DNA from: Flavobacteriales bacterium
GTDB taxonomy: Bacteria > Bacteroidota > Bacteroidia > Flavobacteriales_D > Crocinitomicaceae
Assembly: GCA_947454525.1 (NCBI GenBank)
Contig: CANGJM010000007.1
Span: 1-64,000, forward strand
DNA: 64,000 nucleotides
Reading direction: 5' to 3'
Shown here in pieces: positions 7,591 through 19,846 of the stretch. Every line of letters starts with the position of its first letter. The stretch's first letter is position 1. The translations under genes and the position numbers were made by a program. The notes beneath the pieces are model-generated. The model saw only the letters and a program-made list of their open reading frames with translations, had not been told where the DNA came from and did no database searches.

Positions 7591-9312
7591 ATGAAGCATC
7601 TTTTATGTAGTGCCTTGTTGCTTTTTGTATCAGTTAGCTGTTTTTCACAATCCAACTGGACAGGAAACACTTCTCCAACGTATCCAGCATTAATTGAGCA
7701 CCTCCAAAAACTGGACAAAACACACAAGGAACTTTCCCTGTACAACATGGGCCCCTCGGATTACGGATTGCCCATTTACGTGTTTGTCATCAACGGAGGG
7801 AAGGATTCCACACGTACTTTTGCGAAAGCACAAGCTGGAACAACGATTCTCATCAATAATGCGATTCATCCCGGTGAACCGGATGGCATCAATGCCTGTT
7901 TGATTTGGTTGGACCAATGGATCGCACAAGGAAAACCCTTGGAAACGAAAAATGGCGACAAATTACCGGTGATTGCGTTTATTCCGGGGTACAATGTCGG
8001 GGGAATGATGAACCGTTCTTCGACGAGTCGCGCGAACCAAAATGGACCAGAGGAATACGGTTTCCGTGGAAGCACCCGCAATTTCGACCTGAACCGCGAT
8101 TTTATCAAAATGGATTCGAAAAATGCGTTTACGTTTGCGAAAATCTTTCATTCCTTGGATCCAGATGTGTTTATCGATAACCATGTGTCCAACGGCGCGG
8201 ACTACCAATACACCCTGACGTACATCGCTTCGATGAAAGAGCGCATGTCCCCACAAATGAATGAACTAACCTACGGGAAATGCATTCCCTATTTGGAAAT
8301 GAACGTCAAACAACACGGTTGGGACTTGTTTCCCTACGTGGAATTGAAAGGGGAGACACCTGCGCAAGGAATCCATGCCTTCAATGATTTGCCGCGTTAT
8401 GCAATGGGTTACGCTTCCTTGTTTCATTCGATTAGTTTTACGGTGGAAACACACATGTTAAAACCTTTCCCGCAACGCGTACAAGCGACCTTGGCGTTTA
8501 TGGATGGAATCATTTCATTTACGACAGTAAACGCGCTAGAAATCGAAGCAAAGCGCAGTGCTGCTAAATTGTGGGCAAGAAACCTGCGTCAATATGCCTT
8601 CAACTATCAACTCACGGAAAAAGCGGATTCGATTTCGTTCAAAGGCTACGAGCATTCGTTTCCCTTGCATCCCATTACTGGATTAAAAGAATTGACCTAC
8701 GACCGAACCAAACCGTACGAACGCATGATTCCGTGGTTTAAAACGTATGTCCCGAAGGATTCTGTTGCCGTTCCGGAATACTACGTCATTGGTGGACAAG
8801 AACAGGAAGTCATCGATCGCTTGACTGCAAACCATGTCCTTTTTGAAACCTTGACTTCAGCGTCCATCGACACCTTGCACGTGTTCTCGGTGAAATCGTA
8901 CAAAAGTCCGGCCCAACCTTACGAAGGACACTTTAAATTGTCTCAGATTGAAGTAGGGGAGAGCGCGCGCGCAATGGATTTGAAGCCAGGAGATATCCTG
9001 ATTCCAAGTCAACAAGATGCAGCGCTGTTCATTCACGCATCCTTGCAACCGAGAGCAGAGGATTCTTATTTAACTTGGAATTTCTTTGATTCGTATTTGC
9101 AGCAAAAGGAATATTTCTCAAACTATGTCTTCAAGGATCAAATCGCTGATATTCTGGCGAAGAATCCACAATTACAGGAAGAATACCAACTGCGCAAAGC
9201 AACGGATGAGAAATTTAGAAATTCCGAATGGGATCAACTGTATTTCATCTACAGCCGTAGTCCATATTTCGAGCAAACCTTTATGCGCTTGCCGATTTAT
9301 CAGAAATTCTAA
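7591..9312 (+). CDS. Secreted M14-family zinc carboxypeptidase
   Basis: After a signal peptide (residues 1-20, ending CFSQ) the protein has the M14 zinc site: HPGE (H93, E96) in LINNAIHPGEPDG and a third ligand in FIDNHVSNGAD. The substrate-binding region is GSTRNFDLNRDF, and the catalytic glutamate is probably in ISFTVETHMLKPF. M14 enzymes remove C-terminal residues from peptides or split cell-wall peptides. A C-terminal half (from about 330) of unclear fold is typical of the large Bacteroidota members. There is no T9SS sorting domain, so it is probably periplasmic. The stop is 10 bp from the stop of the convergent PorP gene. Confidence 0.87.
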   Translation: MKHLLCSALLLFVSVSCFSQSNWTGNTSPTYPALIEHLQKLDKTHKELSLYNMGPSDYGLPIYVFVINGGKDSTRTFAKAQAGTTILINNAIHPGEPDGINACLIWLDQWIAQGKPLETKNGDKLPVIAFIPGYNVGGMMNRSSTSRANQNGPEEYGFRGSTRNFDLNRDFIKMDSKNAFTFAKIFHSLDPDVFIDNHVSNGADYQYTLTYIASMKERMSPQMNELTYGKCIPYLEMNVKQHGWDLFPYVELKGETPAQGIHAFNDLPRYAMGYASLFHSISFTVETHMLKPFPQRVQATLAFMDGIISFTTVNALEIEAKRSAAKLWARNLRQYAFNYQLTEKADSISFKGYEHSFPLHPITGLKELTYDRTKPYERMIPWFKTYVPKDSVAVPEYYVIGGQEQEVIDRLTANHVLFETLTSASIDTLHVFSVKSYKSPAQPYEGHFKLSQIEVGESARAMDLKPGDILIPSQQDAALFIHASLQPRAEDSYLTWNFFDSYLQQKEYFSNYVFKDQIADILAKNPQLQEEYQLRKATDEKFRNSEWDQLYFIYSRSPYFEQTFMRLPIYQKF

Positions 9313-9321
9313 ACGAAGGTT

Positions 9322-10284
9322 TTAGAAGGAAGGACAAGAAATACGACGGAAGTCCTTCATTTGTTTTTTACATTTCAAGTTGATTCCCATGGAGATTTCA
9401 TGAGATCCACCTGTTACACCACCTAGTTGAGACACAGTTAAGTCGTAGCTGTAGCCAATTCTGAATTTCTCTGTGGTGATTCCTAAACTCACGATAAACG
9501 CATCGCGGTTGCGGTACCACGCTCCAATCGTAAAGGCTTCGTATTTCAAGTAAGCTCCAATATTAAACTGTTGGAATCCATTCTGGTATTGGTAGATGAC
9601 ATTTGGCATCAAGGTCGTGCTGCTTGAATAGCGTCCACGTTGACCAAGTTTGATGTTCGCACCCATGTGTCCAGTAACGCGAATCGGTAATCTCGAATCA
9701 CCTAAAATCATCGATTCATCGGGACGATTTAAATGGTGCGCAGCCACTCCAAAATAGAAGTTTTTCGTGAATCCAACCATTCCAGCGGAAACGTCAAAGA
9801 AGCCATGTGAACCATCTCCTCTTGGAACATCTCCTGTTTGATAGATGAATCCTCTGCGTGGGTCGATCATGTCCCCAAAAGTCAATTTACTCCAGTCTAA
9901 ATACTTTTGGAAATACGCTGCTTGTCCACCGAACATAATGCGGAATTTGCGATTCACTTTTAAGTAATACGAATACGTTCCAGCAATCATCGATGTCTGA
10001 ATCGTTCCTTGTCCCTGTTGGTCGTGCATCGCCATGATGCCAACTCCACCGGACAAATTCTTTGCGTAGGTATCGTATGCTGCTGCGTAGGTAATGTAAT
10101 TTCCAGTTAATTGCGGCCATTGGTTGCGGTAATTCAAAGCAATCCTTGGACAGCCACTTGATCCTGCCAGGGCTGGATTCAAATAAACTGGATTTGAATA
10201 GAATTGTGTAAAGGTTGGATCTTGAGCCATGGAATGAAAACTCACGTAAAAAAGACCAAGTAGGATGAGGTTTTTTAAGTTCAT
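9322..10284 (-). CDS. PorP/SprF family T9SS-associated outer-membrane protein
   Basis: The signal peptide ends at MAQ, and the mature protein starts with the PorP/SprF signature DPTFTQFYSNPVYLNPALAG, followed by the repeated beta-strand pattern (GGVGIMAMHDQQGQG, FFDVSAGMVGFTKNFYFGVA) of an outer-membrane barrel of about 300 residues. PorP/SprF proteins are needed for secretion or surface attachment of particular T9SS cargo, such as SprB-type adhesins. It lies 8 bp downstream of the barrel-fused anti-sigma gene, so it is the third gene of a sigma/anti-sigma/PorP operon. No adhesin gene is next to it here. Confidence 0.92.
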   Translation of the reverse strand: MNLKNLILLGLFYVSFHSMAQDPTFTQFYSNPVYLNPALAGSSGCPRIALNYRNQWPQLTGNYITYAAAYDTYAKNLSGGVGIMAMHDQQGQGTIQTSMIAGTYSYYLKVNRKFRIMFGGQAAYFQKYLDWSKLTFGDMIDPRRGFIYQTGDVPRGDGSHGFFDVSAGMVGFTKNFYFGVAAHHLNRPDESMILGDSRLPIRVTGHMGANIKLGQRGRYSSSTTLMPNVIYQYQNGFQQFNIGAYLKYEAFTIGAWYRNRDAFIVSLGITTEKFRIGYSYDLTVSQLGGVTGGSHEISMGINLKCKKQMKDFRRISCPSF

Positions 10285-10292
10285 AGTAGTAG

Positions 10293-11972
10293 TTATAGGC
10301 TGATGTATCTGCGCGCTTTTTTGCTAACAGAAGAATGAATACGTAGGGTTAATTGATGTGTGTAAGTTCGTTGTTGTGTGCTCACTAAAGTGCCAAAACC
10401 GGATTGTCCAATCAAAGCAAAATTCTTTCCAACATATCCGAAGGATACACTTCCGGTGTTTAAGTTTCCGTAGGAAAGTCCGAGTTGTGCTTTTCCTGCT
10501 TTAAACGTAAATCCACCGAAGAGTTGTTTTTGGTAATTGGAATGTTGATAGATTGCGTAGGGAGCAAAAATCAATTTTTCATTTCTTGAAATGTACTGTG
10601 TTCCCGTGATGAGGTTGAGGTTTCTTGCTGCGGCCATGGTTTCTCCGTTATTAGAGAAAATATTTTCATTGTGTTTGAAAATGTTCGTGATTTGTCCACT
10701 CAAGAAAAAGAGTGGTGTGTGTATGGTTAATCCAGCATCTAAATCGCGGTACCACAAGGTGCGTCCGATGGCCAAATTCGGATCGAATTGAAACTGGTTT
10801 ACTTGTCCCGTATTGTATTCAACAGAACTTTCATTCACCATTTTCACTTGATTTAAGGTGTATGTTCCATTTTTGAATCGAACAGCTGGTTCCAAGGAGA
10901 TTTTGCGCGACAAGGCAATTTTTGGCGAGAAAATCAAAGCGAAATTGCCGTTTCGAATGAGTCCAGTACTAAAGTCATCGTAATTTACTTGTATACCGAA
11001 TCCCGCACGCATGTTTCTCGAGTAAGCGTCCAGTGAAAGTTGGTTGTTCAGTTTAAATTGGGCTGGATTTTCCAAAGAACGAATGGAGCTTAACATTTGA
11101 AAACGTGTTTGTGAAGTCGTTCCAACTGAACTAAAGTTTAAGTCGAGATTGCTTTGTCCAGGCATCGTGTAATCGTAACTCTGGTTGTTGCTCAGTCCGA
11201 TTTCTTTCGATAAAAGCTGATCGATTTTCTTGAACAGGTCGATATTCCCTAAACTGATTTCGGCAGCATCAAGTTCTGCATTCACACTTAACACTTCGTT
11301 TTTGAAATCGGTACGGTATCCACCGACAATCATTCCTTTCAATGCGTGCAAGTTGATTCGTTCAAATTCCATGGTAGAAATGGGAACATTGGAATTCGAC
11401 AACTTGAAATCTGAAGATTCTTCCACAACGGGATGTGTCGTTTCGTTTGTTGATCCAACTCGAGACAAGGAGCCTTGTTCAGTTGATGGATTCAAAGAAA
11501 GATGATCAGTCGTTTTCCTTGTCGTTTCATAAGGAGTAGAAACAGGCGTGTAGAGTGATGGTCCGTTAACAGAAGAAACAGACTGATCAGATTCAGTTCT
11601 TTTAATGGTTGCGTTGGTTATTTTTTGTTGAGTGCGAGCTGTGTTCTTTTTACCACTTTGAGCATTCACCGAGGAGGTATGTGATTCTTGTTGTTGGTTC
11701 GTATAGAAAAGAGAAATTCCAGTGGTGAACAGAATCAAGAGGCTCAATAGTGCCAAAGCAGGTTTGTAGGATCGTTTTTTGTAGAGTCGTTCTTTGCGTT
11801 CGAAAACCATAGGTGCCACATCCACTTTGGACATTTCCCATGCATCCATGTCCACTTCAAGGTCCGGATGATTCATCAGAAACAATTCTAATTGCTGTTC
11901 TTGCTCCGCAGAAAGATTTCCTTCCGTGTAGTCAAATAGCCAGCGATCAATGTTTTCGTGTGTCGGTTGCAT
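10293..11972 (-). CDS. Anti-sigma factor with predicted dual-membrane topology and PorP-like barrel
   Basis: Residues 1-65 are polar and helical with an anti-sigma-like pattern (NIDRWLFDYTEGNLSAEQEQ, then LFLMNHPDLEVD). Residues 71-90 form one transmembrane helix. Residues 91-265 are a low-complexity Ser/Thr/Gln-rich linker with a short helical part at 245-262. Residues from about 265 to 559 read as a PorP/SprF-like barrel (SRNMRAGFGIQVNYDDFSTG, SRKISLEPAVRFKNGTYTLN, TGSVSFGYVGKNFALIGQSG). The likely topology is cytoplasm, inner membrane, periplasm, outer membrane. Such dual-membrane-spanning anti-sigma factors (Dma) have been reported in Bacteroides. It overlaps the sigma gene by 1 bp and precedes a PorP gene by 8 bp. 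The domain calls are by eye. Confidence 0.75.
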   Translation of the reverse strand: MQPTHENIDRWLFDYTEGNLSAEQEQQLELFLMNHPDLEVDMDAWEMSKVDVAPMVFERKERLYKKRSYKPALALLSLLILFTTGISLFYTNQQQESHTSSVNAQSGKKNTARTQQKITNATIKRTESDQSVSSVNGPSLYTPVSTPYETTRKTTDHLSLNPSTEQGSLSRVGSTNETTHPVVEESSDFKLSNSNVPISTMEFERINLHALKGMIVGGYRTDFKNEVLSVNAELDAAEISLGNIDLFKKIDQLLSKEIGLSNNQSYDYTMPGQSNLDLNFSSVGTTSQTRFQMLSSIRSLENPAQFKLNNQLSLDAYSRNMRAGFGIQVNYDDFSTGLIRNGNFALIFSPKIALSRKISLEPAVRFKNGTYTLNQVKMVNESSVEYNTGQVNQFQFDPNLAIGRTLWYRDLDAGLTIHTPLFFLSGQITNIFKHNENIFSNNGETMAAARNLNLITGTQYISRNEKLIFAPYAIYQHSNYQKQLFGGFTFKAGKAQLGLSYGNLNTGSVSFGYVGKNFALIGQSGFGTLVSTQQRTYTHQLTLRIHSSVSKKARRYISL

Positions 11973-12499
11973 TAGGCAAGTAAAAAAAGTCCTTTTAACT
12001 GTTTCTTTAATTTCAATCGCGCTCTGAATAAATATACTTTGACTTGAGCTGAAGGAATGCTGAGCATGTCCCCAATTTCTTCGTACGTATATCCTTCCAA
12101 ATCGCGTAACAAGAGAATACTTTTCTGTAGGGGAGGAAGGGAGCCGACCATTAAATCGATTGCCTGTTTCGATTCAAACGACTGATCTGGTTTTTCAAAG
12201 CCAGATTTATCGATAGAATCTAAGTGAAGCTTCTGTGTTTTTTTTCGGTGTAACTGATTCAACATCGCGTTGTGCACACAGGTAAAAAGCCAGGATTTCA
12301 CTTTTTCTTTCTCTACTTTTTCTCTATTTAACCACAATTTTTCAAATGCATCTTGAACAACATCCTGAGCATCCTCCGAATCCTTCAGAAAATGAACTGC
12401 ATAGCGATACAATGAATCGCTTATTTGTTCTACGGAATGATTGTATTCAGCACTAGTCAAAATTGTAGTATTACAGTTAAAACAAATTGAACTTATCAA
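11972..12499 (-). CDS. ECF-type RNA polymerase sigma factor
   Basis: Region 2 is visible at about residues 26-95 (DSLYRYAVHFLKDSEDAQDV, then VQDAFEKLWLNREKVEKEKV, then WLFTCVHNAMLNQLHRKK) and region 4 at about 115-170 (LPPLQKSILLLRDLEGYTYE, then EIGDMLSIPSAQVKVYLFRA). Region 3 is absent, as in ECF factors. It would direct polymerase to a specific set of promoters once released by its partner anti-sigma factor, whose ATG overlaps this TAA by 1 bp. The open frame starts with a TTG at 12499. A second TTG at 12460 is an alternative, as the first 13 residues look unlike the family. Confidence 0.92.
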   Translation of the reverse strand: MISSICFNCNTTILTSAEYNHSVEQISDSLYRYAVHFLKDSEDAQDVVQDAFEKLWLNREKVEKEKVKSWLFTCVHNAMLNQLHRKKTQKLHLDSIDKSGFEKPDQSFESKQAIDLMVGSLPPLQKSILLLRDLEGYTYEEIGDMLSIPSAQVKVYLFRARLKLKKQLKGLFLLA

Positions 12500-12581
12500 A
12501 AGTTACACGTCCATGAAAAAAAACAGTAACTACTTAACGAGTAAACTTACAAAATTATTAGCAAGAAGAAAAAAAGGGGAG

Positions 12582-13337
12582 TTAGAACCCGAAATTATCG
12601 AAGCCCATTTGGGTGAGTTCTTGGTATTTCTCTTCGTTAAATTCGTACAAAGAAGAAGGTTTGTGTGGAACACCGCGTTGTTTTTCCTTTAAGTTAGAAA
12701 GGATGTTTAATTTTTGAATTTTGCGACGGAAATTTCTTTTGTCCAAGGGTTTGTCCAAAATACTTTCGTACAAACGGTGCAGTTGACTTAAGGTGAATTT
12801 TTCAGGCAACAGGTTAAATCCGATGGGTTGAATTTTGATCTTCTGCTTTAATTTTTCTTTTGCCGCTTGAAGGATTTCGAAATGGTCAAAGGCTAATTCA
12901 GAAATTTCATTCACTGGCGCCCATCCGGCATTTTTCGCGAAGGAAGATGCGTGAGGCAAATAATCTTCAATTTTCACCAAGGAAAAATAGGCAACGGTAA
13001 TTACGCGAGCATCCGGTTGTGCCCTGATGGACTTCAACCATTCGCGGTCAGATTCCTTGTGAATGCGAAATGGATCACCAAAAGCACCGACTTGTTCGAG
13101 GTAGATGTCTTTTAATCCTGTAAGTTCGTCCAAAACACGGCTTGCAGCTTGATCTAAATTCTCATTGTCGTAGATGAGGTTTCCCGGCAAGGCCAAACGA
13201 GGTCCTTTCTCTGCAGAAATCTCTCCACGGTCAATAACGAGCACGGTTAATTTTTCCAAGTCGAATCCAAAAATCACACAGTCCACAGAGACATTTGGAT
13301 TTAATTCAGAACCTATTTTTTTAAGATTATTATGCAC
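12582..13337 (-). CDS. Nudix-type (NrtR family) transcriptional regulator of the sugar locus
   Basis: Residues about 12-140 are a Nudix domain starting NPNVSVDCVIFGFDLEKLTV, and the C-terminal 90 residues are the NrtR-type winged helix (FTLSQLHRLYESILDKPLDK, then RNFRRKIQKLNILSNL). The Nudix box is degenerate: the segment reads RVLDELTGL instead of REUxEExGU, so two glutamates are lost and hydrolysis is unlikely; it would sense a ligand instead. Relatives in Bacteroidota control sugar use (for example AraR). It diverges from the maltose locus, which it probably regulates. I prefer the GTG at 13337; the frame opens with a TTG at 13391, but that would put the operator-like site inside the gene. 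Confidence 0.85.
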   Translation of the reverse strand: MHNNLKKIGSELNPNVSVDCVIFGFDLEKLTVLVIDRGEISAEKGPRLALPGNLIYDNENLDQAASRVLDELTGLKDIYLEQVGAFGDPFRIHKESDREWLKSIRAQPDARVITVAYFSLVKIEDYLPHASSFAKNAGWAPVNEISELAFDHFEILQAAKEKLKQKIKIQPIGFNLLPEKFTLSQLHRLYESILDKPLDKRNFRRKIQKLNILSNLKEKQRGVPHKPSSLYEFNEEKYQELTQMGFDNFGF

Positions 13338-13354
13338 GAAAGAAGGATTTTGTA

Positions 13355-13381
13355 TATATTTGGAAAGTGTAAAAATGACAC
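13355..13381 (+). promoter_or_regulatory. Promoter -7 box and candidate operator of the maltose locus
   Basis: TATATTTG (13355-13362) is an exact TAnnTTTG box. Four bases after it is GTGTAAAAATGACAC (13367-13381), an imperfect palindrome whose ends (GTGT/ACAC) are complementary. It lies between the promoter box and the kinase ATG at 13409 and just outside the regulator gene, the natural position for a repressor site. The operator call is an inference from position and partial symmetry. Confidence 0.4.
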
Positions 13382-13408
13382 AAAGACTCAAATTATCATT
13401 TTAGAGAT

Positions 13409-14281
13409 ATGTATTTTATAGTAGAAAGTGGTTCAACTAAAAGCGATTGGGTTTTAGTTGATAGCAAAAATAACCAAAGTTTTTATTCAACAATGGGCTT
13501 TAATCCATATTTTCATTCATCCGATTTGATTGAAACGGAATTAAAGAAACAAGTGGACATCCTCGCAGTTGCAGATGAAGTCCGTGGAGTTTATTTCTAT
13601 GGCGCTGGTTGTTCAAGCGATGAAATGAATGAAATTGTTGAAATCGGACTTAAAAGAATTTTCACAAATGCAGAAATTGTGGTTGATCATGATTTGCTTG
13701 CGTGTGCGTACGCGACGTATTCAGGTAATCCAGCCATTTCATGCATCATCGGTACAGGTTCCAATTCTTGTCTGTTTGACGGGAAAGAATTAAGTGAGGT
13801 TGTTCCAGCATTAGGATACATTCTTGGCGATGAGGGAAGTGGAAGTTATTTCGGTAAGCAATTATTGAGTAATTTCTTGTACCACAAACTTCCTGCTCAC
13901 GTCGAAGCGGACTTTATTTCCACGTATCAATTGGATAAAGATCAAATCGTGAATCACGTGTACCGTGAGCCGAATGCCAATGTGTACATTGCGTCATTCA
14001 TGCCATTCATCGCGAAACATAAAGATGAGCCTTTCTTTAGTGAAATGGTTTATGCTGGATTTAAGAAATTCATGGAAGTACACGTGTGTTGCTATGAAAA
14101 TTTCCAAAATACAGAAGTTCACTTTGTTGGTTCTCTTTCTAAAATATTTGAGTCTGAATTGAATAAAGCAGCTGGAGAATTGGGTGTTACTGTGACATCC
14201 ATTATTCAGAAACCCGTAACCGGACTCGTTCATTACCACCTAAATTATATCCTTAATCTTCAAACTGTAAAAACATGTTAA
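13409..14281 (+). CDS. BadF/BadG-type sugar kinase (glucokinase or N-acetylglucosamine kinase)
   Basis: The ATPase fold of the BadF/BadG/BcrA family is seen in the phosphate-1 loop near the start (VESGSTKSDWVLVD, residues 5-18), the phosphate-2 motif IIGTGSNSCLFDG (about 113-125), and LGYILGDEGSGSYFGKQLL (about 135-153), a mark of N-acetylglucosamine kinases. It lies first in a maltose operon whose phosphorylase releases free glucose, so phosphorylation of glucose to glucose 6-phosphate is the job that fits best; this is inferred from context. Its end overlaps the next gene by 7 bp. Confidence 0.85.
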   Translation: MYFIVESGSTKSDWVLVDSKNNQSFYSTMGFNPYFHSSDLIETELKKQVDILAVADEVRGVYFYGAGCSSDEMNEIVEIGLKRIFTNAEIVVDHDLLACAYATYSGNPAISCIIGTGSNSCLFDGKELSEVVPALGYILGDEGSGSYFGKQLLSNFLYHKLPAHVEADFISTYQLDKDQIVNHVYREPNANVYIASFMPFIAKHKDEPFFSEMVYAGFKKFMEVHVCCYENFQNTEVHFVGSLSKIFESELNKAAGELGVTVTSIIQKPVTGLVHYHLNYILNLQTVKTC

Positions 14282-15597
14282 GATCCATACTATTTGCCTC
14301 ATTGTCATTCATTGCCTTTTCATCGATTGCGCAGCGAAACACACCGGATTGGGCTCAAAATGCGACGATTTATGAAATCAACGTACGTCAATTTTCCAAG
14401 GATGGAACATTTGCGCAAGTAACGAAACAGCTTCCACGCTTGAAATCCATGGGTGTGGATATCTTGTGGTTAATGCCGATTCATCCGATTGGGGTGAAAA
14501 ACCGCAAGGGATCTCTTGGGAGCTATTACGCGGTACAAGATTACAAAGCCGTGAACCGTGAATTTGGGGATTTAAATGATTTTAAAACCTTGGTAAATAA
14601 AGCACATGAATTAGGAATGTACGTCATCATTGACTGGGTTGCGAATCACTCTTCTCCCGATAATGTTTGGTTAGAAGAAGGACATCTTGACTGGTATACA
14701 TTAGATTCAACTGGAAATGTTCAACCAACCATCGGTACAGATTGGTGGGATGTTGCTGATTTGAATTATGACAATCCAGCTATGCGTATAGAGATGATCA
14801 AATCCATGAAGTATTGGTTGACCGATGCGAACATTGACGGTTTCCGTTGTGATGTTGCAGGTTGGGTTCCAATGGACTTCTGGATGGAAGCACGTGCAGA
14901 ATTACAAGCAGTGAAGCCAATCTTTATGTTAGCGGAAGCAGAGGAAGTTCCATTGCACGATGCATTTGAAATGACTTATGGGTGGAATTTTCACCACATT
15001 ATGAACGATGTGGCGAAAGGTAAAAAAGATGCCACAGCCATTCAAGAATACGTGAAAACAAATAAATATCCAGGAAACGCTTACCGAATGAATTTCACGT
15101 CAAACCACGATGAAAACTCTTGGAATGGAACAGAGATGGAACGAATGGGTGATGCGCGCTTTGCTTTGGCTGTTTTAGCAGCAACCATTGAAGGAATGCC
15201 GTTGGTATACAATGGACAAGAAACATCTCTTGATCGTCGTTTGAAATTCTTCGACAAAGACAGCATCGAGTGGAAAAAAATGGACCTTGTTCCTTTCTAC
15301 ACGAAATTGCTGAAATTACATCAAACGAATGATGCACTGTGGGTAAATGACGGAACCAATCAAGCGAAATTCGTTGAGACGACAAATCCAAAAGAACAAT
15401 TGGTGTATATCAGAGCATCAAACGGTCATCAAGTGATTACGGTTTTGAATCTCACGAACAAAAAGTCTGAGTTCACCTTTAATTCTAAAAACATTTCAGG
15501 TGAATACACAGATTTATTCTCTGGTAAAAAGAAAACACTTTTAAACTCAAACAAAGTTGCTTTGGGTCCTTGGGGTTACCAAGTTTATTATAAATAA
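14275..15597 (+). CDS. Secreted GH13 alpha-amylase-family enzyme
   Basis: A signal peptide (residues 1-20, ending IAQ) is followed by a complete GH13 barrel. The catalytic residues are all present: nucleophile D193 in GFRCDVA, acid/base E221 in MLAEAEE, and the transition-state aspartate D279 in SNHDEN. The substrate-side motifs VIIDWVANH (117-125) and PLVYNGQE are also intact. A short beta domain ends the protein. It has no T9SS sorting signal or lipobox, so it is most likely periplasmic and would cut malto-oligosaccharides that have already entered the cell envelope. The family cannot separate alpha-amylase from maltogenic or cyclodextrin-cutting types by eye. Confidence 0.9.
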   Translation: MLRSILFASLSFIAFSSIAQRNTPDWAQNATIYEINVRQFSKDGTFAQVTKQLPRLKSMGVDILWLMPIHPIGVKNRKGSLGSYYAVQDYKAVNREFGDLNDFKTLVNKAHELGMYVIIDWVANHSSPDNVWLEEGHLDWYTLDSTGNVQPTIGTDWWDVADLNYDNPAMRIEMIKSMKYWLTDANIDGFRCDVAGWVPMDFWMEARAELQAVKPIFMLAEAEEVPLHDAFEMTYGWNFHHIMNDVAKGKKDATAIQEYVKTNKYPGNAYRMNFTSNHDENSWNGTEMERMGDARFALAVLAATIEGMPLVYNGQETSLDRRLKFFDKDSIEWKKMDLVPFYTKLLKLHQTNDALWVNDGTNQAKFVETTNPKEQLVYIRASNGHQVITVLNLTNKKSEFTFNSKNISGEYTDLFSGKKKTLLNSNKVALGPWGYQVYYK

Positions 15598-15618
15598 TAC
15601 GAGTCAAATACCTAAACC

Positions 15619-16929
15619 ATGACTAGTACGAAACCAAACTTATCTTTTTGGCAAATCTGGAACATGAGTTTCGGATTTATGGGAATCCAATTCGGTTGGG
15701 GACTCCAAATGGCCAATATGAGCTCCATCTATGAAAATTTAGGAGCGAAACCAGAGGATATTCCAGCGCTTTGGCTGGCGGCACCCTTAACTGGCTTGCT
15801 TGTTCAACCCGTTATTGGTTACTTAAGCGACCGAACGTGGCATCCAATTCTTGGAAGACGTCGTCCGTTCTTCTTAATTGGTGCCATCTTAAGTTCTCTC
15901 TGTTTATTCATTATGCCAAATGCATCCGCATTGTGGATGGCTGCCGGATTACTTTGGGTTTTGGATTCTTCGATTAACATCAGTATGGAGCCTTTCCGTG
16001 CGTTTGTTGCGGATAAACTGCCAGAAAATCAACGCACAGTTGGATTCTCGATGCAGAGTTTTTTCATTGGAGTAGGAGCAACGATTGCTAGTGCCTTACC
16101 TTGGATTTTTACCCATTGGTTCAATGTGAACTCCACAGCTGCACATGGTCATGTTGCCGATAACGTGAAATGGTCATTCTACATTGGTGGAATCGCCTTC
16201 CTTGGCGCTGTTCTGTATACCGTTTTTACAACGAAAGAATATCCGCCGACGGAAGAGGAACTCGCTGCGAAGAAAGCAGAAAAGAAAGGATTGCTCAGTG
16301 GAGTGAATGAAATTGTTTACGCCATTACGCACATGCCAAAGAGAATGAAACAGTTGGCCCTGATTCAATTTGTGACTTGGCCAGGATTATTCCTCATGTG
16401 GTTCTATTACACTCCAACGGTTGCCAATGATATTTTCGGAGGCGAAGTGGGATCAAAAGCATATTCTGATGGACAAAATTTCGCTGGATTAACCTATTCT
16501 ATTGAAAATGTTGTGACTTTATTGTTTGCCCTTGTATTGCCATTTTTAGCCGGTAAATTCGGTAAGAAATGGACACATTTTCTGTGCTTGTTGATTGGTG
16601 GACTCGGACTAATCTCTATAAACCTGATTCAAGGTGAAGAAATGAGTTATGGATTGTTCATTGTCATGGGACTTGTTGGGATTGCATGGAGTAGCATTCT
16701 TTCCATGCCATATGCAATGTTGGCGGATTGTCTACCTGAAAATAAGATTGGAATTTACATGGGTATTTTCAACTTTTTTATTGTTTTACCTGAAATTATC
16801 GCTTCTCTTTTCTTCGGAAAGGTGATGGAAAATGTGTTAGATGGATCTAGAATTGCCGCAGTAACCATTGGTGGGTGTTTGCTCATACTAGCGGGAATTT
16901 TAACATTGAGAATTAAAGAGGAAAAGTAA
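15619..16929 (+). CDS. MFS sugar transporter, SLC45/GPH-like (probably maltose:H+ symport)
   Basis: There are about twelve transmembrane helices in 436 residues. Family marks are the loop motif between helices 2 and 3 (PVIGYLSDRTWHPILGRRRP, about residues 73-92) and FGWGLQMANMSSIYENLGA in helix 1, as in the SLC45/sucrose-maltose symporter group. It would carry maltose or short malto-oligosaccharides across the inner membrane for the phosphorylase. A charged cytoplasmic loop (EEELAAKKAEKKGL) lies between helices 6 and 7. It sits 21 bp after the amylase gene and 3 bp before the phosphoglucomutase gene, in one operon. Confidence 0.9.
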   Translation: MTSTKPNLSFWQIWNMSFGFMGIQFGWGLQMANMSSIYENLGAKPEDIPALWLAAPLTGLLVQPVIGYLSDRTWHPILGRRRPFFLIGAILSSLCLFIMPNASALWMAAGLLWVLDSSINISMEPFRAFVADKLPENQRTVGFSMQSFFIGVGATIASALPWIFTHWFNVNSTAAHGHVADNVKWSFYIGGIAFLGAVLYTVFTTKEYPPTEEELAAKKAEKKGLLSGVNEIVYAITHMPKRMKQLALIQFVTWPGLFLMWFYYTPTVANDIFGGEVGSKAYSDGQNFAGLTYSIENVVTLLFALVLPFLAGKFGKKWTHFLCLLIGGLGLISINLIQGEEMSYGLFIVMGLVGIAWSSILSMPYAMLADCLPENKIGIYMGIFNFFIVLPEIIASLFFGKVMENVLDGSRIAAVTIGGCLLILAGILTLRIKEEK

Positions 16930-16932
16930 TTT

Positions 16933-17574
16933 GTGATGGTGAAAGCACTCATTTTTGATCTAGACGGTGTCATTGTGACAACCGAACATAATCATTTTAT
17001 CGCGTGGAAACGCACAGCGGAATCACTAGGGATTCCATTTGAAGAAGAACATAACGAATTACTCAAAGGGGTCAGTAGAGTGGATTCACTCAAAAAGATT
17101 CTCGAACTTGGTGCTAAAACCATTTCCACAGAGGAATTTGATGCGCTTCTGATTAGTAAAAACGACTTTTATGTCGATTCGATTCAGGACTTGAACCAAA
17201 CAGATCTCCTTCCTGGAGTCTTGAGTTTGTTGCAAGAAGCCACATCCAAAGGAATCAAATTAGGCATCGGATCTTCCAGTAAGAATGCAAATTTCATACT
17301 GAAGTTGTTGAAGATTGACCACTTTTTTGATGTCGTAATCGATGGAAACGGAGTAGAGCACCCAAAACCGCATCCAGAGGTGTTTTTAAATGGGGCAAAA
17401 GCCTTGAATTTAGCTCCAACGGAATGCATCGTATTTGAAGATGCAGCAAGCGGAATAACAGCTGCCAAGGCTGGAGGATTCATCGCAATAGCGGTTGGGA
17501 ATCCAAACATCGCTGAAATGGCGGACACATATTTTAATGATTTAACCGAATTTAGTTTAGAAGCGTATGCGTAA
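16933..17574 (+). CDS. pgmB: Beta-phosphoglucomutase (HAD superfamily)
   Basis: It converts beta-glucose 1-phosphate, the product of maltose phosphorylase, to glucose 6-phosphate. The HAD motifs are present: nucleophile and acid DLDG at 8-11 (D8, D10), the cap start with EHNHFIAWKRTAESLG, motif II GIGSSSKN, the lysine in EHPKPHPEVF, and the acidic motif VFEDAASGI. Length 213 is usual. It overlaps the maltose phosphorylase gene by 8 bp, a pairing seen in most maltose-phosphorylase loci and the best evidence for its exact substrate. Confidence 0.93.
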   Translation: MMVKALIFDLDGVIVTTEHNHFIAWKRTAESLGIPFEEEHNELLKGVSRVDSLKKILELGAKTISTEEFDALLISKNDFYVDSIQDLNQTDLLPGVLSLLQEATSKGIKLGIGSSSKNANFILKLLKIDHFFDVVIDGNGVEHPKPHPEVFLNGAKALNLAPTECIVFEDAASGITAAKAGGFIAIAVGNPNIAEMADTYFNDLTEFSLEAYA

Positions 17575-19846
17575 TTTGTTTGAAATAGATGCTTGGAAGA
17601 TAATTGAAAATAAGTTTGATTCCAGCAAACAAAAACAAGCGGAAAGTATCTTTAGTATTGGTAACGGTTCCTTTGGACAACGTGCTAATTTTGAGGAACA
17701 TTATTCAGGAGATTCCTTGCAAGGAAGCTATGTCGGTGGAGTCTATTATCCAGATAAAACACGTGTAGGTTGGTGGAAAAATGGATATCCAGAGTACTTC
17801 GCCAAAGTATTGAATTCATGTAATTGGATCGGGATTAACATCGAAGTGGATGGAATTCCGTTGGATTTAAATACTTGCGAAGTAAAGTCCTTTCACAGAG
17901 AATTGGACATGCAACATGGAATATTGACAAGGCATTTTAAAGTGATTTTGTCAAATGGAAAAGAATTGGAGGTTCAATCCATTCGTTTTTGTTCCATGGC
18001 GAAAGAAGAAATTGCTGCAATTTCTTATACTGTAACTCCCATCAACTTTAGTGGTAACGTGAAATTCACGCCATACCTTGATGGAAAAGTGAGTAACCAC
18101 GATGCGAATTACGATGAGTTTTTCTGGTTGGAGGATAGCCGCAAAGTCGATGCACAAAAAGGAATCATTTGTGGACGCACCAAAAAAACCAATTTCTCTG
18201 TTGCTACGGCAATGCGTTATTCCTTTTGGAAAGACACGGAATTATTGACGATTCATCCGAATGTGGCGGAACGCGATTTCTACGTAGAAAACAACTTTGA
18301 ACATTATTTAGAGAAAGGTATTCCCTATACCTTGAAAAAGTATGTCGCGATTACGTCAACGATGAATCACTCGGATTTTGAATTAGCTGCGAAAGCCATT
18401 TCAAGAGTACGCGATGCGTACACTGGTGGATTTGACAAATTGCGTCAGGACCACGAACAAGCGTGGTTGAAGATTTGGGAAAATGCGGATATCGTTATTA
18501 AAGGTGATACAGCTGCTCAACAAGGAATTCGTTTCAATATTTTCCATCTGTATCAAACCTACACAGGTAAAAATGCCAAATTAAACATCGGTCCGAAAGG
18601 ATTTACTGGAGAAAAATACGGTGGTGCAACGTACTGGGATACGGAAGCATATTGTTTGCCATTTTATTTAAAAACGGCAGACCCGAAAATTTCTCGTCAA
18701 TTGTTGGTTTATCGTTACAACCATTTGAATAAGGCCATCGAAAATGCCGAGAAACTTGGATTCAAAGACGGTGCAGCCCTTTATCCAATGGTGACCATGA
18801 ATGGGGAGGAATGTCACAACGAATGGGAAATTACGTTTGAAGAAATTCACCGTAATGGAGCCATCGCTTTTGGTATTTACAACTACGTGCGACACACTGG
18901 AGACCGCGATTATTTAAAACAATATGGTTTCCCAGTTCTTTTAGGGATTGCACGATTCTGGACACAACGTTTCAACTGGTCTGACAGCAAACAAGCGTAC
19001 GTGATGCTCGGTGTAACGGGTCCAAACGAATACGAAAACAACGTCAACAACAACTGGTATACGAATTACATTGCACGTTGGTGTATCGATTACTGTTTGA
19101 AAATCAACGAGGAAATCGGCGGTTCAAACAATAAATTGATGTCCGAAAAGGAAATCAAAGCGATGCGACACATTGTTGAGAATGTCTATTTCCCTGTTTT
19201 AGAAGGAACGAATATTTTCCTTCAACAAGATGGATTCATGGATAAAGAACAATTATCTGCGAATGATTTGCCGTTAACGGAGCGTCCAATTAACCAACAT
19301 TGGTCTTGGGACCGCATTCTTCGTTCGATCTTCATCAAACAAGCGGATGTCCTTCAAGGATTGTATTTATTCGAAGACCACTTCGATCTTGAAACCATTC
19401 GTGAAAACTTCGATTTCTATGAGCCGAAAACCGTTCATGAATCTTCCTTATCACCATGTGTTCACGTAATTCTTGCTGCGAAGATTGGAAATCTGGCGAA
19501 AGCGTATGAATTGTACTTAAGAACTTCTCGTTTAGATCTTGATGATTACAATCACGAAGCGGACGAAGGACTTCACATTACCAGTATGGCTGGAACGTGG
19601 ATGTCCGTTGTCGAAGGAATGGCAGGTGTCCGTGTACATGAGTCTGGATTGGAAATCAATCCAACGATCCCAACTGCATGGGATTCCTACACATTTAGAA
19701 TTTTATACCAAACCGTTCCTTTGGAGATTTCGATCGATAAAATGAACGTGCGTGTTAAAAATATTGGAACGACTAACGTTACGTGCTTAGTGAAGAAAGA
19801 AATGATTACCATTAACGCTGGAGAAGTGCATGTAACTGAAGTATAA
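17567..19846 (+). CDS. Maltose phosphorylase (GH65)
   Basis: GH65 phosphorylases split maltose with phosphate into glucose and beta-glucose 1-phosphate in the cytoplasm; no signal peptide is seen. The 759-residue length is normal. The N-terminal beta-sandwich begins with SIFSIGNGSFGQRANFEEHY, the (alpha/alpha)6 barrel contains the motif GEECHNEWEITFEEIHRNG with the general acid at E419 (HNEWE), and the segment GATYWDTEAYCLPFYL is typical of the maltose type. Trehalose or kojibiose specificity cannot be excluded by eye, but the ECHNEWEIT version and the GH13 neighbours favour maltose. pgmB overlaps it upstream and an alpha-amylase follows after 10 bp. Confidence 0.93.
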   Translation: MRNLFEIDAWKIIENKFDSSKQKQAESIFSIGNGSFGQRANFEEHYSGDSLQGSYVGGVYYPDKTRVGWWKNGYPEYFAKVLNSCNWIGINIEVDGIPLDLNTCEVKSFHRELDMQHGILTRHFKVILSNGKELEVQSIRFCSMAKEEIAAISYTVTPINFSGNVKFTPYLDGKVSNHDANYDEFFWLEDSRKVDAQKGIICGRTKKTNFSVATAMRYSFWKDTELLTIHPNVAERDFYVENNFEHYLEKGIPYTLKKYVAITSTMNHSDFELAAKAISRVRDAYTGGFDKLRQDHEQAWLKIWENADIVIKGDTAAQQGIRFNIFHLYQTYTGKNAKLNIGPKGFTGEKYGGATYWDTEAYCLPFYLKTADPKISRQLLVYRYNHLNKAIENAEKLGFKDGAALYPMVTMNGEECHNEWEITFEEIHRNGAIAFGIYNYVRHTGDRDYLKQYGFPVLLGIARFWTQRFNWSDSKQAYVMLGVTGPNEYENNVNNNWYTNYIARWCIDYCLKINEEIGGSNNKLMSEKEIKAMRHIVENVYFPVLEGTNIFLQQDGFMDKEQLSANDLPLTERPINQHWSWDRILRSIFIKQADVLQGLYLFEDHFDLETIRENFDFYEPKTVHESSLSPCVHVILAAKIGNLAKAYELYLRTSRLDLDDYNHEADEGLHITSMAGTWMSVVEGMAGVRVHESGLEINPTIPTAWDSYTFRILYQTVPLEISIDKMNVRVKNIGTTNVTCLVKKEMITINAGEVHVTEV

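Follow-up and report, generated by a model that had tools for sequence, protein, structure and literature searches.

The window analysed here is a stretch of 64,000 nucleotides, bases 1-64000 of contig C7 in a genome of 2.83 Mb (labelled G000). Its minus strand carries a three-gene operon behind a conserved promoter. The first gene (11972..12460) encodes an ECF sigma factor of 162 amino acids, which matches Sigma70_r2 (E = 1.3e-15), Sigma70_r4_2 (E = 1.7e-16) and NF058625 (E = 2.9e-39), starts with TTG and ends in a stop codon that overlaps the next start codon (TAATG). The second gene, the open reading frame at 10293-11972 in the ORF list of the window, encodes 559 amino acids and is referred to below as the fused protein. 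The third (9322..10284) encodes a PorP/SprF protein with two cysteines in its C-terminal tail (PF11751, E = 4.4e-62; TIGR03519, E = 8.3e-72), a duplicate of the core PorP of the type IX secretion system (T9SS). The ECF sigma gene and the second PorP/SprF gene, which the original prediction had named as neighbours of the fused gene, are thus both confirmed. Against NF058625 the sigma factor of the window scores 134.5 bits, over the curated cut-off of 130, and one other fused-system sigma that was scanned scores 126.5 bits, under it. The sigma gene had been placed at 11972-12499; its start is corrected here to a conserved TTG at 12460 (window 12458-12460), found at the same place in 60/60 loci, and this invariable TTG suggests that low translation is under selection.

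The family sample comprises 60 loci picked by score and genus spread, including that of the window, and the 60 fused proteins were aligned. In all 60 loci the fused gene directly follows an ECF sigma gene, and in 57 it directly precedes a PorP gene; the remaining three loci stop at contig ends. Another eight loci come from elsewhere in the order: seven belong to families f57, f63 and f64, and one lies on a short, possibly misbinned contig of a 64%-complete f2 genome. The sigma gene is present in seven of them (the eighth stopping at a contig end) and the PorP gene in all eight. The operon and its promoter are strongly supported. Within the family of the window, 157 of 200 genomes match the fused protein at E <= 0.001, a count that takes in partial and PorP-like-only matches; two Crocinitomicaceae MAG relatives are 86 and 88% identical. 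A search of 395 phylum genomes listed a full-length fusion for the genome of the window only; its other listed matches cover part of the protein (N-terminal domains, the tether alone or separate PorP/SprF proteins). Among those listed for 399 genomes of the order, full-length fusions occur in families f1, f57, f63 and f64 and on the f2 contig; in genera g2, g10, g11, g13-g16 and g20 of the family of the window the best E-values of this search are no better than 1e-32, the level of a PorP match. No relatives were found in viral contigs.

Beyond the PorP gene, window 7591-9312 encodes a 573-residue protein whose start looks like a signal peptide; it contains an HPGE stretch resembling M14 carboxypeptidases but matches no Pfam family at E <= 1. 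On the other side of the operon, window 12582-19846 holds an NrtR-type NUDIX regulator followed by apparent sugar-use genes, as judged from the ORF list. In many genera outside that of the window, the sigma gene is flanked by a divergent gene of about 588 codons (L053, 2435-4201); the one example examined is an AMP-binding enzyme.

Domain architecture of the fused protein

An anti-sigma-like N-terminus, a transmembrane helix, a tether and a PorP-type barrel in a single chain constitute a well supported architecture, which we consider highly probable. Residues 1-68 (11769..11972, minus strand) form the anti-sigma-like domain, which would be cytoplasmic. The alignment of 60 members reveals near-invariant residues (N7, D9, W11, F13, E17, G18, N19, F31, P36 and W45), AF2 models helices at residues 8-16, 22-34 and 42-48 (pLDDT of about 75 for residues 1-40), and comparison with the N-termini of 10 ECF-adjacent unfused anti-sigma proteins gives a profile match of 97.6% (E = 4.3e-12). 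This helical, putatively sigma-binding domain is homologous to the N-terminus of other ECF-adjacent proteins. A single transmembrane helix is predicted at residues 72-90 (11703..11759, minus strand), the sole segment of the protein to reach the hydrophobicity threshold (Kyte-Doolittle value 2.11) and one that coincides with a low-confidence model helix at 70-97; it agrees with the helix first proposed at 71-90. The linker of about 170 residues that had also been proposed is recovered as a Ser/Thr-rich, putatively periplasmic tether at residues 91-259 (11196..11702, minus strand; Ser 14% and Thr 12% over residues 93-245). The tether is poorly conserved and gapped in places, and the span from the end of the transmembrane segment to the last 300 residues ranges from 146 to 267 residues (median 174) in the 56 of 60 fused proteins that were measured. 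The chain ends in the predicted outer-membrane barrel, residues 260-559 (10296..11195, minus strand), and the domain order supports the dual-membrane layout originally predicted for this single 559-residue chain.

The C-terminal barrel

Searched alone, the fused protein of the window matches no Pfam family at E <= 1, and its single NCBIfam match is an insignificant one to an anti-sigma model (E = 0.16). The barrel is undetectable from this protein alone, so the family alignment is needed. Scanned singly, 38 of the 60 fused proteins match PF11751 (PorP_SprF) at E <= 0.1 (best 9.1e-30) and 38 match TIGR03519 (best 1e-31), the protein of the window being in neither set; the runner-up Pfam family after PF11751 is matched by 2/60. 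In a profile-profile comparison, residues 245-559 match 48 full-length downstream PorPs at 99.8% (E = 1.1e-28, 294 columns), and the same method gives 5.6% for the barrels of 10 unfused loci and 2.5% for six Dma-like proteins, both taken as negative controls. Ten barrel residues are invariant across the 60 members (D315, P350, K351, P362, G369, D410, N430, G457, G498 and H539). It is clear from the family that the C-terminal domain is a full-length PorP/SprF relative, and this part of the original prediction stands on the 99.8% profile match and the 38/60 matches to PF11751.

PorP-like proteins belong, according to PMC9143113, to the FadL family of barrels and have 14 strands. AF2 left the barrel unresolved in the full-length protein (3-row alignment, pLDDT 30.1) and produced 14 strands at low confidence for the barrel together with PorP (6-row alignment, pLDDT 45.7). 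All 50 matches listed by Foldseek for the 14-strand model are membrane barrels (bacterial outer-membrane proteins, VDAC and Toc75), only two of the matches listed reaching E <= 0.001; the 50 listed by VIA are likewise all membrane barrels (Z = 12.2-14.1). PorP, PorV and FadL entries were absent from both lists of 50 obtained with this weak model. A sequence search of the PDB gave four insignificant matches for the fused family and none for PorP. The model being weak, the structural matches only support the assignment.

A duplicate of the core PorP in the operon

Contig C12 carries a PorP gene whose product shares 81% identity with the operon PorP over 317 residues. On one side this gene has a GldJ-like gene, scoring slightly below the cut-off for GldJ, and on the other PorU and then PorV. 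Since the core PorP is thus duplicated in the operon, the link to PorP is closer than the original prediction had it. We counted PorP genes (E <= 1e-60) in 25 chosen genomes, 13 with the fusion and 12 without. Two were present in 12 of the 13, the operon copy in the thirteenth (G037) being cut by a contig end, and a single one in 11 of the 12. The twelfth (G013) has two: the core gene, flanked by GldJ-like and PorU genes (L394, 3842-4683), is broken by four in-frame stops, and the other, on a different contig, is intact. A PorP gene lies beside PorU in 23/23 genomes covered for this locus (22 intact, and the broken one of G013; G184 and G052 are outside this count). At least four other PorP genes of the genome of the window directly adjoin genes with a type-B sorting domain.

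Two cysteines occur within the last 45 residues of 47/48 operon PorPs. Among the fused proteins, 43/60 have no cysteine within the last 300 residues, and 10/60 have one within the last 45, in nine of these more than 20 residues from the end; the tail of the fused protein of the window has no cysteine, unlike that of SprF. In Flavobacterium johnsoniae, the C-tail cysteines of SprF are reported to bond to GldK and to be needed for normal movement along the track (PMC12635249). By analogy, attachment to the track is possible for the operon PorP and improbable for the fused barrel, which mostly lacks these cysteines.

Promoter and candidate regulon

A conserved ECF-type promoter, TGTAAC-N16-TTGTTT (12480..12507, minus strand), ends 19 bp before the sigma start codon. 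TGTAAC-16-TTGT is found upstream of 58/60 orthologues; the two exceptions have a 15-base spacer and ATGTTC, respectively. Using the strict pattern TGTAACTTT-N13-TTGTTT, three perfect sites were located in the genome of the window: that of the operon itself, one at position 255701 of contig C1 and one at position 118074 of contig C5. The second precedes three tandem genes of about 120 codons with lipoprotein-like starts, and the third precedes a gene for a putative outer-membrane protein of 296 residues that is distantly PorP-like (82%, E = 1e-5, 201 columns, 6 rows). The three small lipoprotein-like genes (L270, 3755-4952) have no Pfam match, and the gene adjoining their operon is presumably pheS.

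Ten genomes of the genus were searched, and six, including that of the window, have exactly three perfect sites each. All 18 of these sites precede the operon, the lipoprotein unit or the outer-membrane-protein unit, 17 of them at 13-26 bp from the start codon. Of the other genomes of the genus, the perfect sites fit the three units in G115 (2/2), G184 (2/3) and G136 (1/1), and G121 has no site. Among 40 other genomes, a perfect site is present in 24/28 with the fusion and 1/12 without it; the single site in the latter group, in G022, has no clear gene after it. The 47 perfect sites of the 28 fusion genomes lie ahead of 20 sigma genes (13 assigned by translated locus and 7 by position), 12 lipoprotein genes, one PorP gene (292 aa) and 14 other genes, and a reversed-pattern control gave 10 sites in all 40 genomes.

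Perfect sites precede lipoproteins in 8/10 genomes of the genus and 12/28 others with the fusion, versus 0/12 without it; in distant genera the distance from the site to the lipoprotein ORF downstream is 92-196 bp. The lipoprotein operon itself was found in all of 23 genomes, nine with the fusion and 14 lacking it. In seven of these 14, the operon is preceded by a site that departs from the strict pattern at no more than one position. Among nine fusion genomes, a set picked partly for want of perfect sites, one has a perfect lipoprotein site, two have a site with one mismatch, one has a site with two mismatches and five, all of genus g7, have none. Since half of the fusion-less genomes keep a near-perfect site, the lipoprotein promoter may be read by another sigma factor, or may be older than the fusion. 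This imperfect link weighs against a tight regulon, and the 14 sites before other genes weigh against the explanation favoured below.

Promoter hits discriminate only when perfect: with one mismatch allowed, the strict pattern gave 59 sites in the ten genomes against 50 for the control, near control level. A looser pattern (spacer 15-18, no TTT) was discarded, its 8 sites against 6 control sites being near chance.

Comparison with Dma proteins and other sigma/anti-sigma systems

The Dma proteins of Bacteroides thetaiotaomicron are described as having an anti-sigma domain, one transmembrane helix, a long disordered tether and a β-barrel, their genes adjoining that of an ECF21 sigma factor except for Dma3 (PMC13088901). 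The four-part domain order and the position beside an ECF sigma gene are thus common to the reported Dma proteins and the fused protein, whereas the PorP/SprF-type barrel and the PorP gene completing the operon distinguish the fused system. As Dma-like we label ECF-adjacent proteins with one transmembrane segment and an outer-membrane-protein-like C-terminal end, for which Pfam supports a barrel weakly. The fused N-terminus does not match six such proteins of family f6 (0.4%), a comparison outside which the B. thetaiotaomicron Dma proteins themselves lie. In a tree of 56 sigma factors (22 fused-system, 12 unfused, 14 beside Dma-like proteins and 8 other), the fused-system and unfused sigmas form one clade (100/99), and the 14 sigmas beside Dma-like proteins form a separate clade with one other sigma (100/97). 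The fused-sigma group has moderate support (89/45), and long branches were flagged among the outgroup rows. Descent from Dma-like proteins is accordingly not favoured, since sigma, N-terminus and barrel all fall outside the Dma-like groups. On paper the fused protein would operate as a Dma does, but it looks like a product of separate origin and should not be classed as homologous to the known Dma proteins.

The NF058625 (PG0214 / GFO_1088) family has sigmas that group with those of the fused systems (100/99) and homologous N-terminal anti-sigma domains. In these unfused systems, however, the anti-sigma protein ends after its tail and is followed by a separate barrel gene, matching PF13568 in the three tested, and the fused barrels do not match these barrels (5.6%). 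The fused form may have arisen by fusion of an unfused anti-sigma with PorP, or the unfused form by loss of an older barrel. The genome of the window contains such an unfused sister system on contig C8 (L116, 4098-6755), with a sigma factor, a 349-residue anti-sigma, the N-terminus of which matches that of the fused protein (6e-10), and a separate PF13568 barrel gene; its promoter, TGTAAC-N16-CGTC, has the same -35 element as the fused operon and another -10 element. On contigs C11, C5 and C28 (L120, L121, L122, L123 and L127), ECF sigma genes are followed by genes for proteins of 341-466 residues with one predicted transmembrane segment, several of which may be classic Dma proteins.

PorXY-SigP of Porphyromonas gingivalis likewise links an ECF sigma factor to the T9SS, but there a two-component system is reported to act on the sigma factor (PMC7712824, PMC8265659). 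The fused barrel is homologous to PorP/SprF proteins over nearly the full length, and its low-confidence model has the 14 strands stated for PorP-like proteins (PMC9143113); it differs in being tethered N-terminally to an inner-membrane anti-sigma domain, in mostly lacking the C-tail cysteines and in having no adjoining type-B cargo gene. No description of a PorP-barrel anti-sigma factor was found among the open-access titles and abstract openings listed.

Discussion

The sequences themselves show in what order the domains lie, that the barrel is homologous to PorP, that the operon is invariant and holds a second core PorP, and that a conserved promoter stands at the operon and, in many relatives though not in all, at the lipoprotein operon too. 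The explanation that we favour, at about even chances, is that this sigma/anti-sigma operon, with an anti-sigma factor spanning from cytoplasm to outer membrane and a PorP/SprF barrel as its sensor, is a homeostat of PorP supply. The N-terminus would hold the sigma factor at the inner membrane, and the barrel would sit in the outer membrane as a mimic of PorP, mostly without its C-tail cysteines. If PorP in the outer membrane became scarce, or its assembly or partners were disturbed, the barrel might be left uninserted, captured by a PorP partner or cut. The sigma factor would then be freed to raise the expression of PorP and of its own operon, and in some species of the small lipoproteins too, until new PorP restored the resting state. 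We put forward more tentatively that the tethered PorP look-alike competes as a decoy with real PorP for assembly or partners, so measuring PorP supply, that the operon repays a shortage with a spare core PorP and that the arrangement arose separately from the Bacteroides Dma proteins.

A somewhat doubtful but possible alternative is a Dma-like general sensor of outer-membrane assembly or envelope stress, in which the barrel reports whether insertion occurs at all and its PorP type is an accident of recruitment. Such a sensor would agree with the domain order reported for the B. thetaiotaomicron Dma proteins (PMC13088901), with the occurrence of motif sites before putative outer-membrane proteins and lipoproteins, and with the other ECF-adjacent proteins of 341-466 residues in the genome of the window. 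The second PorP gene, however, goes with the fusion and is absent without it (25 genomes, one broken exception), and this, like the invariant operon order, points to PorP specificity. We consider unlikely the reading, close to the original prediction, in which the barrel monitors T9SS machine activity or type-B cargo in the outer membrane and regulates T9SS genes. PorP-like proteins are reported to carry type-B cargo (PMC9143113, PMC12618676), the core PorP copy has PorU, PorV and a GldJ-like gene as neighbours, and in Flavobacterium psychrophilum an ECF-type motif is described before T9SS genes and a sigma/anti-sigma pair (PMC9723704). That motif, however, has a CGT -10 box, as does the unfused paralogue here, and not TTGTTT. 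None of the three perfect sites in the genome of the window, nor any in the five relatives with three sites, precedes a T9SS motor or translocon gene, and a regulon of T9SS machine genes is accordingly not favoured. The dual-membrane layout, the T9SS-type barrel and the sigma and PorP flanks of the original prediction are supported, and T9SS control is not.

Very improbable, in our judgement, is the reading of the C-terminal end as a decayed remnant of PorP that does not insert, carried by an ordinary inner-membrane anti-sigma factor that is released by proteolysis. With the closest relatives set aside, identity to the counterparts in the window is 20-41% for the whole fused protein, tether included, and 57-80% for the operon PorP, and PF11751 fails to recognize the fused protein of the window. 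Against decay stand the profile match across nearly the full length of PorP, the ten residues from D315 to H539 that do not vary in 60 members and, at low confidence, the 14 modelled strands.

Dual-membrane anti-sigma factors are a recent discovery, and a single chain that appears to span both membranes could carry information on the condition of an outer-membrane barrel directly to the transcription machinery. The present system suggests that two-membrane signalling of this kind arose more than once. It also suggests that members of this family may regulate the T9SS PorP by feedback. The family of the sensor barrel has known partners (cargo, the GldK track and PorE), the gene for its likely reference protein is adjacent and the promoter is readable, so what a tethered barrel senses becomes directly testable. 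The genome of the window also has five one-mismatch sites, one of which lies inside a gene. The other four (L267 2114, L267 4501, L268 3303 and L269 3261, with TTGTTA, TTGTTC or TTGTCT) precede genes with signal-peptide-like starts and are candidates either for further targets of this sigma factor or for targets of its sister sigmas.
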